Notes under the pieces: model-generated | The model's input: only the letters and a program-made list of their open reading frames with translations | Told to the model about the DNA's origin: nothing | The model's database searches: none | NCBI GenBank assembly: GCA_031271905.1 | Contig: JAISUT010000021.1 | Span: forward strand, 1 to 50,644 | Direction: 5' to 3' | DNA: 50,644 nucleotides | Source of the DNA: Acidobacteriota bacterium | GTDB taxonomy: Bacteria; Acidobacteriota; UBA6911 | Shown: one piece after another, positions 12,336-50,316 of the stretch | How the letters are laid out: each line of letters begins with the position of its first letter | Numbering within the stretch: position 1 is the stretch's first letter | Program-made: the position numbers and the translations under genes

Positions 12336-12402
12336 TGTAGAAACCCTTCCTTTCCATTGTTGTGAACCAGTGCGCCGTATCATTTAAACCGGACATCCTC
12401 AT

Positions 12403-12465
12403 GGGAACCTCTAAAAACCCCGGACGCTGCGTTGCGCCTTGTCCGCGAGCTTTTCAGAGGCCCCC
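12403..12465. repeat. MITE-like palindromic element, short form, copy B
   Basis: This 63-bp element starts GGGAACCTCTAAAAAC and ends GCTTTTCAGAGG then CCCCC. It is flanked by TCAT on each side (12399-12402 and 12466-12469). The right-hand TCAT contains the TGA stop codon of the molybdopterin-subunit gene on the minus strand. The element therefore inserted exactly at the end of that gene. Same short architecture as copy A. Confidence 0.75.
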
Positions 12466-14814
12466 TCATATCTTGCCGAGCGCCTGCAGCACCTTGTCAG
12501 GCGTGGCGGGGGGATCGACCCACTTGCCGATGGCGTTCTGGAGGGCGCAAATCACCAGGTGCGTGTTGGCGAGCGAGTGGCTGATGCCGTTGGAGCCGTA
12601 GGCGGCGTTGCCCGCATGGGTCTCCAGCAGCTCCTTGTCCACCGGGGCGACGTCCGCGATGGTCGGCTTTTTATAGTCGAACATGTTGTTGTTGAGCTTC
12701 ACCCCCGTCTTCGCGTCGTAGAAGTAGTCCTCCAGCAACTGGCACCCCTGGCTGAAGTACAGCACCTGGTCGATCTGGCTCTCCAAGGAGGTGCGCCGGA
12801 TGATCTTGCCGGTGTCGGCGGCCACGCCGAAGCGCAGCACCTCCACCTCGCCCGTCTCGGCGTCCACCGCAACCTCGCACATGGCGACGTTCATCGTGTC
12901 CAGCGCCTTGCCCATGCCGGTGCTCCAGATGGACAGCGGCGGGCGTCCGGAGTAGGTGGCGAAAAGGTGCGCGCGCGTGGCGCGGGCCAGCGGCACGGCT
13001 TGCGACGGGTCGGCCTTCAAGACCACGTTCCCGTCCTTGAGGTCGAGGTCTTCGGGCTTCTTCCCCTTGAAGGGGCTGGGCGCGGCGGGTTTCTTGGGGG
13101 CGGGGCCGAAGCCGCCCGCCGCCGGGGGGTTGTCCGCCTCCTTGACGACGGCTTCGAGGATGCGTTGCTTCAGGATGTTGGCGCACTCCTTGGTCGCCCA
13201 CGCCGAGGCGGTGGTGCCATCGCTGCCGCCGCCCACGGGGGTGAAGATCTCGCGGTAGTCGAAGTCGATGCTGACGTCCTCGTAGCGCAGCCCCAGCTCC
13301 TCGGCCACCACCATCGCGTTCCCCTCCACGGCGTAGATGCCGGTGCAGGGGCCTTGCGTCGGCATGTGGACGACGCCGTTGCGGAACTCCAGCATGCAGT
13401 TGAACGACGCGCCGGAATGGCGGGGGCTCATCTGGTAGCGGAAGCTCGCGCCGTGGAGCCGCCCGTCGGGGAGCTTCCTCGCCCCGGCGGCGTGCCAGTT
13501 CCAGCCCATCAGCTTCTTGCCCGCCTCGACGCACGCCAGGTAGCTGGGCACGGGGCGCGCGTCCTCCTGCGAGTCGGGACCGTGCAGGTTCAGCGTCGCC
13601 ACGTCGATGGGGTCTTTGCCGAGCTTCTCGGCGATGATGTGGTTCGCCATCGTCACCGAGTCCCAGTTGAAGGGGCAGTGCTGGCCGCTGGTGTACATCT
13701 TGCCGCGGTTGGTGTCCACGATGTCCATGTTCTGCCGGATGTTCAGGCAGCGTGTGGTGACGTAGGGGCCGTAGCCCTGGTCGCCGCTGTTGCCGAAGCT
13801 GGAGCTGCCGCGCACGCCGTTGTCGCCTATGGAGAAGTCGTCGATGGCGGTGATCAGCCCGTCGCCCTTGAAGCCGACCTTCAGGTGCATGAGGCGCTGG
13901 TTCATCTGGAAATCGTACATCTCGTCGCGCCGGCAGACGCAGCGGACGGGCCGCCCCGTGCGCTTGGCGAGCAGGGGGGTGATCTCCTGCGACTTGCGCG
14001 TCCCCCAGTCGCAGTATTTGCCGCCCTGGAACAGCCCTTCCTGTATGGTCTTCTCCGACGGCATCCGGTACATGCCCCCCACGCTGTCCTTGCGCTGCAC
14101 CGCCCCCTCGATGTGCAGGCTCTTCCCTTCGCCGTGGTACGGGTCGTCCTCCCACCAGGCGACCGAACCGGAGGGGTTGGGGATGTGCGAGGAGAATGCG
14201 GGCATGTTCAGGTCGTACTCGATGACGTGGTCGGCCTGCTTGAAGCCCGCCTCGATGTCGCCTTGGCTCACGTTGGAGTAGGAGACGTTCCCCTTCTTGG
14301 GCGGGTTGTTGTTGCCGCCGCCGCCCATCATGAAGCCGCCCGACTTGGCAGGGGGGTATTTTTCGCGGATGACGGGGGCGTCGGGCTTGCGCCCCTCGCG
14401 CAAGTCCACGACGTGCGGCAGGACTTCCCATTTCACGTCCAGGGCGCGCAGGGCCTCTTCGCAGATGTCTTCGTTCTCCGCCACGACGATGACGGCGACC
14501 TCGGCGCCCTCCATGTCGGCGATGTTGTCGAGGAAGCCGCCGCCGCTCAACTGCTTCATGTCCTCGTCTTCCCAGGTCACGATGTCCACGACGCCGGGGA
14601 TCGCCTTGGCTTTCGCGGCATCGACCCCCAGCACCCGCGCGTTGGCGTAGGGGCTGCGCAGGAACTTGGCGTGGAGCATGTCGGGGACGGCATAGTCGAT
14701 GCCGAACTTCGCCACGCCGGTCGCCAGCGCCGGTGAGAGTTTTCCGGGAAGGTTGGGCTTCCCGACCACCTTGAATTCCGTCCTTTGTCCGTTCACTCCT
14801 TCGAGATCGGCCAT
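12466..14814 (-). CDS. Xanthine dehydrogenase-family molybdopterin-binding subunit
   Basis: The 782-residue protein has the two expected domains: an N-terminal aldehyde oxidase/xanthine dehydrogenase a/b hammerhead (GIDYAVPDMLHAKFLRSPYA) and the MPT-binding domain (KRTGRPVRCVCRRDEMYDF, PTQGPCTGIYAVEGNAMV, GGGSDGTTASAW). Enzymes of the family hydroxylate or oxidise aldehydes, purines and N-heterocycles at a Mo site. They normally work with FAD and [2Fe-2S] subunits; neither lies nearby. The C-terminal motif that usually reads GxGEP, with the catalytic glutamate, reads GISHS here. A glycine/asparagine-rich insert (FMMGGGGNNNPPKKG) is present. AAAGGAGT nine bases upstream supports the ATG at 14814. 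It is either an unusual enzyme or one with altered chemistry. Confidence 0.8.
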   Translation of the reverse strand: MADLEGVNGQRTEFKVVGKPNLPGKLSPALATGVAKFGIDYAVPDMLHAKFLRSPYANARVLGVDAAKAKAIPGVVDIVTWEDEDMKQLSGGGFLDNIADMEGAEVAVIVVAENEDICEEALRALDVKWEVLPHVVDLREGRKPDAPVIREKYPPAKSGGFMMGGGGNNNPPKKGNVSYSNVSQGDIEAGFKQADHVIEYDLNMPAFSSHIPNPSGSVAWWEDDPYHGEGKSLHIEGAVQRKDSVGGMYRMPSEKTIQEGLFQGGKYCDWGTRKSQEITPLLAKRTGRPVRCVCRRDEMYDFQMNQRLMHLKVGFKGDGLITAIDDFSIGDNGVRGSSSFGNSGDQGYGPYVTTRCLNIRQNMDIVDTNRGKMYTSGQHCPFNWDSVTMANHIIAEKLGKDPIDVATLNLHGPDSQEDARPVPSYLACVEAGKKLMGWNWHAAGARKLPDGRLHGASFRYQMSPRHSGASFNCMLEFRNGVVHMPTQGPCTGIYAVEGNAMVVAEELGLRYEDVSIDFDYREIFTPVGGGSDGTTASAWATKECANILKQRILEAVVKEADNPPAAGGFGPAPKKPAAPSPFKGKKPEDLDLKDGNVVLKADPSQAVPLARATRAHLFATYSGRPPLSIWSTGMGKALDTMNVAMCEVAVDAETGEVEVLRFGVAADTGKIIRRTSLESQIDQVLYFSQGCQLLEDYFYDAKTGVKLNNNMFDYKKPTIADVAPVDKELLETHAGNAAYGSNGISHSLANTHLVICALQNAIGKWVDPPATPDKVLQALGKI

Positions 14815-15031
14815 GTCGCCATACTCCTTTGGATTCCGGCCTCCCATCTTTCCCATGAAAAGCCGCGTCAAGTCACGTCAGGTCGCCGGCGCGCCGCGCG
14901 CCGTCGCCTATCCTAACGCCAACGGCAAGCCTGCCGCAACGGAATTCCCCGTTTCGCGCTTCGGGATTTTTGGGGCGGCGCCTGCGCGGGGCGGCGCGCG
15001 AGTCCGCCCAGGATCGCGGTCGGGCCGACGG

Positions 15032-28758: not shown

Positions 28759-28769
28759 GCTTTCCCAAT

Positions 28770-28890
28770 GGGAACCTCTGAAAACCTCGCAGACAAGGCG
28801 TCGCCGCCGGTCGAAAAGCGGAGTTTACTGGGGTAAATGAGCATTTTCGACCAAGGCGCAACGCAGTATCCGGGGTTTTCAGAGGTTCCC
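28770..28890. repeat. MITE-like palindromic element, full form, copy C
   Basis: This 121-bp element has 17-bp perfect terminal inverted repeats (GGGAACCTCTGAAAACC at the left, its complement at the right). A central hairpin GGTCGAAAA / TTTTCGACC encloses TTTACTGGGGTAAA. The flanks are CAAT (28766-28769) and TAAT (28891-28894), a near-perfect 4-bp duplication. Its right end places AGAGG (28881-28885) seven bases before the ATG of the DUF1385 gene, whose first bases come from the flanking TAAT. Without the element, the AGG at rpmE's stop would have been the nearest binding site. Confidence 0.8.
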
Positions 28891-28892
28891 TA

Positions 28893-29936
28893 ATGGCAGA
28901 CGCGAAACCCGCAACGTCCCCCGAAGACATCCTGGTGGGCGGGCAAGCGGTCATCGAAGGGGTCATGATGCGCACGCCGCATGCCTACGCGGTGGCGGTG
29001 CGTCGCATGGACGGCTCCATCGAGGTCAAGCGGGAATTGGTCAAACGCCTTTCCGAGCGTTGGAAGGTCTTCTCCTGGTGGGTGGTGCGCGGTTTCGCCG
29101 TCCTGGTGCAATCGATGGCGCTCGGCATCAAGACGTTGAACTACTCCATCAACGTCTCGGTCGAGGACTTGGAAGCCAAGGAGGCCGCCGAGGCGGCGGC
29201 GAAAGAGGCGCAAGGGGAGGCGGGCGCGACGACAGGCGCATCCGCGAAGAAGCGGAAGAAGAAACAGGGCGGGGGTAAATCCAGCGGCAACGCCGCGCCC
29301 ATAGCCCTGTCCATGCTCTTGGGCGTGGTCGCCGCCGTGGCGCTCTTTATCCTGTTGCCGCTCGGCCTGACCCACTGGCTGAAGTCCTACTACCCCGCCA
29401 TCGAGAACTGGATCGTGTTCAACTTGGTGGACGGGGGCATCCGCGTCATCGTCTTTTTCGCCTACCTGCTGGCGATCAGCCGCCTGAAGGACATCCGGCG
29501 CGTGTTCGAATATCACGGGGCGGAGCACAAGGTGGTTCACACTTGGGAGGACGGAGTGGAGCTGACGGTGGAAAACGCCCGCCAACGTTCGACGTTGCAT
29601 CCCCGTTGCGGCACCAGCTTCCTGATGTTCGTGATGGTGGTCAGCATCCTGGTCTTCTCCATCTTCAAGTTCCACGCCTTCTGGGCGATCTTCCTGTCGC
29701 GCGTGGTGCTGATCCCGGTGGTCTCGGGGCTTTCCTACGAACTCATCCGTTTCTCCGCCTCCCGTTGCAAGAAGGGTTTTTTCCGGTTGCTCGTGCTCCC
29801 CGGCCTCGGCCTGCAACGCATCACGACCAAGGCGCCTTCGGACGACCAGTTGGAAGTCGCCATCCGCGCCCTGACCGAATCGCTGGAACTGGATGGCGTC
29901 AAGTTGCGCGAAGAAGCCCCCGCGCCCGCCGCTTAG
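28893..29936 (+). CDS. DUF1385 integral membrane protein
   Basis: The 347-residue protein carries the family hallmarks ILVGGQAVIEGVMMRTPHA, FEYHGAEHKVVHTWE and LHPRCGTSFLMFVMVV. Several membrane helices are visible (IALSMLLGVVAAVALFILLP, VIVFFAYLLAISRL, FMFVMVVSILVFSIF). A charged Ala/Glu/Lys linker at residues 90-128 is longer than usual. The family, often next to prfA, is of unknown function, although a metal-related membrane role has been suggested. Its start codon abuts MITE copy C, which supplies the likely ribosome binding site. Confidence 0.9.
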   Translation: MADAKPATSPEDILVGGQAVIEGVMMRTPHAYAVAVRRMDGSIEVKRELVKRLSERWKVFSWWVVRGFAVLVQSMALGIKTLNYSINVSVEDLEAKEAAEAAAKEAQGEAGATTGASAKKRKKKQGGGKSSGNAAPIALSMLLGVVAAVALFILLPLGLTHWLKSYYPAIENWIVFNLVDGGIRVIVFFAYLLAISRLKDIRRVFEYHGAEHKVVHTWEDGVELTVENARQRSTLHPRCGTSFLMFVMVVSILVFSIFKFHAFWAIFLSRVVLIPVVSGLSYELIRFSASRCKKGFFRLLVLPGLGLQRITTKAPSDDQLEVAIRALTESLELDGVKLREEAPAPAA

Positions 29937-35484: not shown

Positions 35485-35521
35485 CATCCGCCGGGGAAAG
35501 AAGCCATGGAGCAGGTCTTAT

Positions 35522-35644
35522 GGGAACCTCTAAAAACCTCGCAGACAAGGCGTCGCCGCAGGTCGAAAAGCGGAGTTTGCTGAGGCGAACGAGCATTTTC
35601 GACCAAGGCGCAACGCAGCGTCCGGGGGTTTTTTAGAGGTTTCC
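35522..35644. repeat. MITE-like palindromic element, full form, copy D
   Basis: This 123-bp element starts GGGAACCTCTAAAAACC and ends with its near complement. It has the same central GGTCGAAAA / TTTTCGACC hairpin as copy C. It is flanked by perfect TTAT duplications (35518-35521 and 35645-35648), the right one giving the first bases of the hypD start codon. AGAGG at 35635-35639 lies seven bases before that ATG. The ancestral site GGAGCAGGTCTTATG, rebuilt by removing the element, already had a ribosome binding site. Confidence 0.8.
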
Positions 35645-35646
35645 TT

Positions 35647-36729
35647 ATGAAGCATATCGACGAATACCGCGACGGCGCGGCGGCGCGCGCCCTGGCCGCC
35701 GCCATCCGCAAGCTGGTCACGCGCCCTTGGACGGTCATGGAGATCTGCGGCGGGCAGACGCACTCCATCGTGAAATACGGCATCGACCAACTGCTCCCCG
35801 CGTCGGTCACGCTCGTCCACGGACCGGGCTGCCCGGTCTGCGTCACGCCCTTGGAGCTGGTCGAGAAGGCGATCGAGATCGCCTCCCGCCCGGAGGTGAC
35901 CTTCTGCTCCTTCGGCGACATGTTGCGCGTCCCGGGCGTCTCGCGCGACCTGCTTTCGGTCAAGGCCGCAGGCGGGGACGTGCGCATCGTCTATTCGCCG
36001 CTCGACGCGGTGAAGGTCGCTGCGGAGAACCCGCGCCGCGAGGTCGTCTTTTTCGCCGTCGGCTTCGAGACCACCGCCCCCGCAGTCGCCATGGCGGTGT
36101 TGCAGGCGGCGCACTTGCGGCTCGGCAACTTCTCCCTGCTCGTCTCGCACGTCTTGGTCCCTCCCGCGATGGAGGCCATACTCTCCTCGCCCGACAACCG
36201 CGTGCAGGGTTTCTTGGCGGCGGGTCACGTCTGCGCCGTCATGGGCTACGAGGAATACGGGCCGATAGCGGCGCGCCACCGCGTCCCCATAGTGGTCACG
36301 GGGTTCGAGCCGGTGGACATCTTGCAGGGCGTCCACCTGTGCCTGCGGCAGCTCGAGGAGGGGCGCGCCGAGGTCGAGAACCAGTACGCGCGCTCCGTGC
36401 GGCGCGAGGGGAACCTGGCCGCGCAACGCCCCGTCCGCGAGGTCTTCCGCGTCACGCCGCGCAAATGGCGGGGCGTCGGCGAGATACCGCAAAGCGGCCT
36501 GGGCTTGCGGGAGGCATACGCGGCGTTCGACGCCGAGCGGCGCTTCGGGCTCGCCGACCGTCGGAGCGAGGAGCCGCCGGAGTGCATCAGCGGGCAGATC
36601 CTGCGGGGCGTCAAAAGGCCGGGCGACTGCCCCGCCTTCGGCGTCCGTTGCGTCCCGGAGCACCCCCTGGGCGCGCCGATGGTCTCCTCCGAAGGGGCTT
36701 GCGCCGCCTATTACCGCTATCGGAACTGA
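35647..36729 (+). CDS. hypD: Hydrogenase maturation protein HypD
   Basis: The 360-residue protein has HypD hallmarks: [26 protein letters not shown], the [12 protein letters not shown] loop, [13 protein letters not shown] and the C-terminal four cysteines ([19 protein letters not shown]) for a [4Fe-4S] cluster. It scaffolds assembly of the Fe(CN)2CO centre with HypC, receiving cyanide from HypE. The stop is nine bases before the hypE ATG. Its translation start is directly against MITE copy D. Confidence 0.95.
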
Positions 36730-48587: not shown

Positions 48588-49461
48588 TTACTGGTCTAAG
48601 GCCAGGCGGAAACCAACCAATCTACTACCATTATCGTCGGGTGCCTGGTACCCACGATGCGACACCCGCATGGACGTCGCAGGGTCGGAAATAGACCCGC
48701 CCCGGATTACGCGATACGAGCCCGAGCTAGGCCCCGTGGGGTTGGTCTGCGCGCCGTTGGAGTAATTACCATACCGGTCGCCCACCCACTCATACACGTT
48801 CCCGCTCATGTCGTGGATACCCAGCTCGTTCCCAACCTTCGCCCCTGTTCCCACCGGGACGCCGCCGCCGTTGCCTGAGTACCACGCCACGTCGCCGACG
48901 ATGTTGCTCCCGCTGTACTTGTACCCGGCGCTCCACGCGCCTCCGCGCGCCGCGTACTCCCACTCAGCCTCCGTCGGCAGACGGTACACGCGACCCGTCC
49001 CCGCCGCAGCCTCCAGTTGGTTCAACTTGCAGATGAATCCGTTCGCATAGTAGGTGACGCCCTTCGTCGTCCTGCAGGATCCTCCGCTCGTCCCCACTAC
49101 CTCGTCCCAACTCACAATACTGACGATACTGCCCGCACCAACAGAAGACGGGTTGCTCCCCATCACCGCCACCCATTGCCCCTGTTTCACCTCGTACTTC
49201 CCTATGGAGAAGTCGCTCAACGTCACCGAGTGCGTCGGGGATTCATTGGCAGCGCAATCGCTCCCCTGCTCAGCGGTGCACCCCATCGTGAACATCCCGC
49301 CAGCCACCGGCACCATCCTCACCAACGTCACCGCCCCGTAATCGACCGTAATCGACGCAACGTGCCCAGTCTGGTCCCTCACACTCACCGTCGCCGTCCC
49401 GGCCGCCGCCACCGCCGCCGTCGGCGTCCCCCTTATTTTGCCACTATCATAGTCTATATCG

Positions 49462-49532
49462 AGCCCATCGGGAAGCCCTGTCGCGCTGTACGTGTACGGT
49501 GCGACGCCGCCGGTCGCCGCCGCCACCGTCAC
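49462..49532. repeat. 71-bp repeat within the Ig-like modules (first copy)
   Basis: This sequence is identical to 49738-49808 and encodes the GVAPYTYSATGLPDGL part of an Ig-like module. The identity at all codon positions, including silent ones, points to recent duplication or gene conversion. Confidence 0.7.
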
Positions 49533-49737
49533 AGGCGCTATCGCCTCGCCACTAACCATCTCCGGGATGTCGTAACTCGCGTTGTCCGCCAGAACCAGCG
49601 CCGGAACCACCGCGCCGTAGCCGACCTCGATCGACGCGGAGTTCCCGGCATAGTCCGTCACCGCCACCCGCGCCGTCCCGGCTGACGCCACCGTCGTCGG
49701 CGTCCCCGTTATCTGCCGCGTAGCCGCGTTGAACGCC

Positions 49738-49808
49738 AGCCCATCGGGAAGCCCTGTCGCGCTGTACGTGTACGGTGCGACGCCGCCGGTCGCCGCCGCC
49801 ACCGTCAC
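49738..49808. repeat. 71-bp repeat within the Ig-like modules (second copy)
   Basis: Identical at base level to 49462-49532, whereas the flanking parts of the two Ig-like modules differ. Confidence 0.7.
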
Positions 49809-50316
49809 GGGTGCCACCGCCTCGCCCACCATCATCGTCGGGAGGTCGTAGTCCGCGCTGTCCTCCAGCGCCAGCGTCCTCGGCGTCACCGTCACCGTCA
49901 CCGTCTTCCCATACGTCGCGTTCGCCGTCGGCAACACCGTCACCGTGAACGTCCCAACCTCCACCCCTACGCACTCTATGTTGTCGCCGCTCACGGAGCA
50001 CGCCAGACCAGAATAAAGCGGCTTCAACGTGAAGTCCGTGTTCTCCTTCGTCACCGTGAACACCGTCGTCTCCTCGACCGCCACCGTCGCCACCTCGGGC
50101 GCAACGCCCAGACGGTACGCCTTCAGCGTCACAGTCCGCGCCAACGCCGGATCCGCCGTCGCCTTCACCGTGACAGGGTAATCCCCTGCGACCGTCGGCG
50201 CGCACTGCACCCAGCTGGGAGTTCAACCTTTTTATAGACAATTTGCTAAGCAACAACCTGCCTCCGTTTTGTTCATGCGGCGTTTCGACCGATGTCGGGC
50301 GGGGCACCGACGCTTT

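Follow-up and report, generated by a model that had tools for sequence, protein, structure and literature searches.

The 63-bp element at the end of a molybdopterin-subunit gene (copy B) very probably belongs to a non-autonomous IS5-family MITE with roughly 300 copies in this genome, mobilised in trans by an IS5 transposase into C-TTAA-G-like targets, with its hits on codons following from target preference. In this scheme an IS5-family DDE transposase, acting in trans, would recognise the GGGAACCTCTAAAAACC inverted ends and insert the element into A/T-rich 6-bp palindromes such as C-TTAA-G, duplicating the middle 4 bp. As the genome is 65% GC and 85% coding, an A/T-rich target would lead to insertions exactly at codons: many of the targets that spare genes would fall at stop and start codons, and the target duplication would regenerate the codon that was hit. 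Upstream of genes the element lies almost entirely in one orientation, either because the opposite one disturbs the gene that follows or because insertion itself fixes the orientation.

The window (the whole stretch of DNA analysed, 50,644 nucleotides) lies on contig 60 of a 3.40 Mb genome in 67 contigs, and holds four copies, A to D, that a repeat search of the window linked as one family. Copy B is a short element on the minus strand at 12403-12465. Throughout, ‘sense’ denotes the element strand beginning GGGAACCTCTAAAAACCTCGCAGACAAGGCG, which for copy B is the minus strand, as for both flanking genes. Its two TCAT target duplications, to which no strand is assigned, lie at 12399-12402 and 12466-12469, and the right one holds the TGA stop (12468-12466, minus strand) of the xanthine dehydrogenase-like molybdopterin-subunit ORF (12466-14871, minus strand). 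The hexamer gene caller puts the start of this ORF at 14796 rather than 14871, and its name comes from the first-pass annotation and the residue pattern rather than a profile search. Copy A, also short, occupies 254-316 on the minus strand between CTAT duplications (250-253 and 317-320). The two long elements are on the plus strand. Copy C (121 bp, 28770-28890) is flanked by CAAT (28766-28769) and TAAT (28891-28894), with an ATG start codon at 28893-28895 in its right flank, and copy D (123 bp, 35522-35644) lies between TTAT duplications (35518-35521 and 35645-35648), with an ATG at 35647-35649. This ATG begins a gene that we take, from its residue pattern and general knowledge, to be hypD-like. 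The first-pass annotation had described the paired TCAT, its overlap with the TGA and the targets of copies A, C and D, and the coordinates bear out all of these. No gathering-level Rfam match was found in the window, and copies B and D, when scanned for promoters and terminators, yielded a single weak terminator-like site.

The element is abundant. A pattern for its ends matched 426 times in the whole 3.40 Mb genome, compared to 8 matches for the reversed pattern. A profile search of 2.63 Mb of stretches (77% of the genome, 65.1% GC, 85% coding, 2,182 genes called by the hexamer gene caller) found 239 copies, or ~91 per Mb. Both ends were present in 198 copies, most of which were 61-66 or 118-126 bp long, giving two length classes of ~63 and ~121 bp with inverted ends of ~20 bp. 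As expected of a MITE, the element has terminal inverted repeats, lacks coding capacity and is present in high copy number. The short form equals the long form minus ~58 bp between two AAGGCG repeats, which suggests that it may have arisen by deletion between these direct repeats. The element is a non-autonomous MITE family, very probably of IS5-family type, and belongs to a kind that is already known; no description of this particular element turned up in the literature searched.

Where might the transposase have come from? The first-pass annotation had proposed a search for an autonomous transposon with matching ends; such elements were found, as IS5-family elements in other bacteria, but none was found in this genome. 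Ends identical to the GGGAACCTCTAAAAACC inverted ends occur in many bacteria. They bound a 1286-bp element on an Acidovorax MAG contig (L226:416-1701, no exact duplication) and a 1296-bp element on an IMG/VR contig (L312:6626-7921, CTCT duplication), whose transposases both match PF05598+PF01609 (DUF772+DDE) and the NCBIfam model NF033581, IS5 family. Thus, as expected of an IS5 derivative, the element shares its ends with IS5-family elements that encode a DDE transposase. Plasmid relatives annotated as IS5 have close ends, with a TCAC duplication in Diaphorobacter and AATT (read by hand) in Comamonas; in the other plasmid relatives an exact duplication was looked for and not seen. This genome (G000) gave no match to PF05598 or NF033581 and no tblastn match to an IS5-type transposase, although absence from a draft assembly is not proof. 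A parent transposase in the same genome would support IS5 descent but is not demanded of a MITE. Its apparent absence counts against the explanation we favour and makes the source of mobilisation indirect, and we infer that the family was probably mobilised in trans by an IS5-type transposase that is now absent or not assembled here. The congener G005 has one NF033581 match, which is not accompanied by any of these ends. DDE_Tnp_1 was matched only once in this genome (L171:1456-2787), by a fragment that forms an in-frame fusion with an unrelated ORF.

Among 10 genomes of the same genus, the element occurs only in G000 and G002. The G002 copies are ~75% identical to those of G000; most of them share 90-95% identity with copies from an Acidobacteriota MAG. 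Many same-ended MITEs elsewhere have 4-bp duplications (e.g. TAAA, TATA and TTTA). MITEs in an Acidobacteriota MAG (L260:1379-1500 and L272:884-1003) and in a Prevotellaceae MAG (L245:2297-2430) share their interior with the sister-species element, which suggests either that the element has moved between phyla or that the bins are cross-contaminated. In two spirochaete MITEs (L209:6644-6762 and L248:5692-5799) the inverted repeat is doubled and forms two hairpins in tandem, with end-like sequences on either side of each. Clostridial loci (e.g. L215, L222, L229, L232 and L243) form a separate same-ended MITE family of 157-224 bp, in which some copies have extra hairpins inserted inside them.

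The proposal of a transposon-like element that duplicates 4 bp of its target held across the genome. Exact 4-bp duplications flanked 58 of the 198 two-ended copies, compared to 1 of 198 in a shifted control, and a further 66 copies (11 in the control) matched at 3 of the 4 bases. Together, 124 of 198 copies (12 in the control) had 3 or 4 matching bases. Exact duplications of other lengths were rare among the 198 copies (9 of 3 bp, 4 of 5 bp and none of 6 bp or more), and the fixed length of 4 bp is as expected of a MITE. Copies without an exact duplication are taken to be decayed, although the low proportion with one (29%) counts against the explanation we favour.

The target is a weak 6-bp A/T-rich palindrome like C-TTAA-G, of which the middle 4 bp are duplicated. 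The logo of the 58 exact duplications was near-symmetric and, when symmetrised, read C 55%, T 64%, T 59%, A 59%, A 64%, G 55%; A/T content was 81% within the duplications compared to 43% in their flanks. Insertions per 1000 permitted sites ranged from 5.5 for ATAA through 3.1 for TGAA and 2.9 for TAAA to 0.15 for AAAA, and the difference between ATAA and AAAA shows that sequence matters beyond A/T content alone. Avoidance of TTAA was considered and rejected, as its 0 duplications at 817 permitted sites could arise by chance, given the observed rates.

The most unusual feature of the family is the size of its orientation bias, for which convergent gaps serve as an internal control. In tandem gaps copy orientation matched that of the flanking genes in 123 of 145 cases (123:22), and in divergent gaps 18 of 19 copies agreed with the nearest gene (18:1), whereas convergent gaps showed no bias (15:14). 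Overall, 141 of the 164 copies upstream of genes shared the orientation of the downstream gene (141:23, P ~7e-22), and about 150 of the 2,182 called genes have a copy ≤200 bp upstream, nearly all sense. A replication-strand explanation was discarded, as it misfits the 18:1 in divergent gaps. In G002 and related loci, read by hand, 5 copies lay with and 2 against the gene, a sample too small for a judgement, as was that of the clostridial loci. With respect to the gene that starts at 343, copy A is antisense, which is the minority state. We regard the bias as real, and its cause as either a bias at insertion or a selective filter; with its internal control, it poses directly the question of whether the element alters expression according to its orientation or whether transcription governs which way it inserts.

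A selected regulatory role has, in our judgement, somewhat less than an even chance of being the cause. The transcribed element would be a functional leader, as a structured RNA or a supplied Shine-Dalgarno sequence, or the antisense element would be harmful, so that mainly sense copies were kept. The strong bias in tandem and divergent gaps and its lack in convergent gaps agree with this, and the sense RNA was predicted to be more stable than the antisense RNA in 100 of 117 long copies. However, identity to consensus was equal in all gene contexts, so the element has no extra conservation upstream of genes, and base pairs broken from the consensus were only weakly skewed to G-U over A-C (160 compared to 129). 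Selection on the RNA after insertion was rejected on these two observations.

Start codons also bear on a regulatory role. Grouped by offset from the element, they numbered 9 at 0-2, 4 at 3-12 and 54 at 13-39, compared to scaled expectations of ~12, ~20 and 54. When starts were chosen with no bonus for a ribosome site, the numbers were 7, 4 and 49, and the depletion at 3-12 (expectation ~18-20 overall) had P ~7e-5. Insertions that part a start codon from its ribosome site are missing and insertions right at the start are tolerated; the cases at offsets 0-2 escape the depletion that affects offsets 3-12, a pattern that favours the regulatory role. All 9 of the 9 copies at offsets 0-2 had AGAGG or GGAGG at the element end, 5-7 nt before the start, and the element may supply a ribosome site to the downstream gene. 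This suggestion, and with it the regulatory role, is weakened because AGAGG is predicted to pair with CCUCU in a stem, which would mask it.

Alternatively, orientation may be set at insertion, e.g. by transcription through the target, rather than by later selection, to which we give the same somewhat less than even chance. The bias was independent of decay, being the same in young-looking copies with exact duplications (44:6) and in decayed copies (97:17), and tandem gaps were not poorer in copies than convergent gaps (0.76 and 0.68 per kb, with 0.18 in divergent gaps). Both observations are expected if orientation is fixed at insertion, and both count against a selected role. Convergent gaps, which are transcribed from both sides, would also be expected to show no bias. 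In contrast, the near-symmetric target logo does not point to an oriented insertion, and no IS5-family precedent was found in the literature searched. We think it unlikely that the family is an oriented mobile 5′ leader whose structured RNA or AGAGG end affects how the downstream gene is transcribed or translated; if it were, one insertion event would rewire the expression of a gene.

The insertion at a stop codon seen at copy B recurs across the genome, where the excess is real. A real stop codon lay wholly inside the gene-side tetramer at 25 of 396 ends (13 at offset 0 and 12 at offset 1, with ~1-2 expected per position); every other stop offset up to 39 held 0-4 ends. Matching for tetramer gave an expectation of 6.5 ends at offsets 0-1. 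Copies were also 2.8-fold denser near stops at offsets 2-39 (59 compared to 20.8), and tetramer match and near-gene density together gave ~18 expected ends. Stop-codon insertion is largely explained by target preference in a gene-dense, 65% GC genome, perhaps with a small excess on top. A weak A/T-rich preference in such a GC-rich genome suffices for insertion exactly at stop and start codons, with no special targeting. Active targeting of stop codons by the element or by host machinery is improbable: the 25 ends would fit it, as would a stop triplet in 43 of 58 duplications (14.5 expected at equal A/T content), but ~18 ends are expected without it, and exact-duplication copies alone gave only a small excess (6 at stop codons compared to 2.0 expected from tetramer preference). 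That same small excess counts against explanation by target preference.

The first-pass model, in which a specific preference for NNAT(G) would direct the element to start codons (NNATG) and to overlaps of start and stop (ATGA), is very improbable. All four window copies fit NNAT and six start codons lie at offset 2, but the genome-wide logo is palindromic, NNAT/ATNN accounts for 22 of 58 duplications (15.1 expected from tetramers of equal A/T content) compared to 43 of 58 for TTNN/NNAA (22.7 expected), and the 9 ends at start offsets 0-2 are about what tetramer preference times near-gene density (4.9 × 2.3) predicts. Thus the A/T-rich part of the proposed target stands and NNAT as its motif does not; likewise, some copies do lie exactly at start codons, with no excess over target preference. 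That the four sites in one window were all NNAT was chance. The G noted beside them is the outer G of the C-TTAA-G palindrome or the element's own G, and on the left side it is trivially the element's first base.

Among the closest known systems is the IS5 family (the NF033581 group in Acidovorax, Diaphorobacter, Comamonas and Azotobacter), with which the element shares the GGGAACCTCTAAAAACC ends or close variants and 4-bp duplications (CTCT, TCAC, AATT). Those elements encode a DUF772+DDE transposase in ~1.2-1.3 kb, whereas the present element has 63-121 bp and no gene. The same-ended MITEs (Acidobacteriota MAG L260/L272, Prevotellaceae MAG L245, Clostridia, Treponema and Sulfurovum) share the ends and, in many, A/T-rich 4-bp duplications; most differ in the interior, but in those from the Acidobacteriota and Prevotellaceae MAGs the interior motif GCGGAG...GTAAATGAGCA...GCGTAACGCAG is shared as well. 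Pneumococcal BOX, RUP and SPRITE and the ERIC repeats have different ends and parent families. They resemble the present element in being small, structured, intergenic mobile repeats, and no C-TTAA-G target is described for them in the passages of PMC3049150 consulted. According to these passages, BOX encodes the stop codon of 36 pneumococcal genes and orientation-dependent effects of boxB and ERIC are cited, so there is precedent for small mobile repeats that provide stop codons or whose effect depends on orientation (PMC3049150). MITEAba12 is likewise a MITE (~113 bp) with IS-matched ends and A/T-rich duplications, but its duplications are 9 bp long and its ends are those of the ISAba12 group (PMC6382973).

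Elsewhere in the window, tandem repeats of ~276-279 bp occur inside a coding region at 49329-49953, and are probably repeated domains of one large protein.
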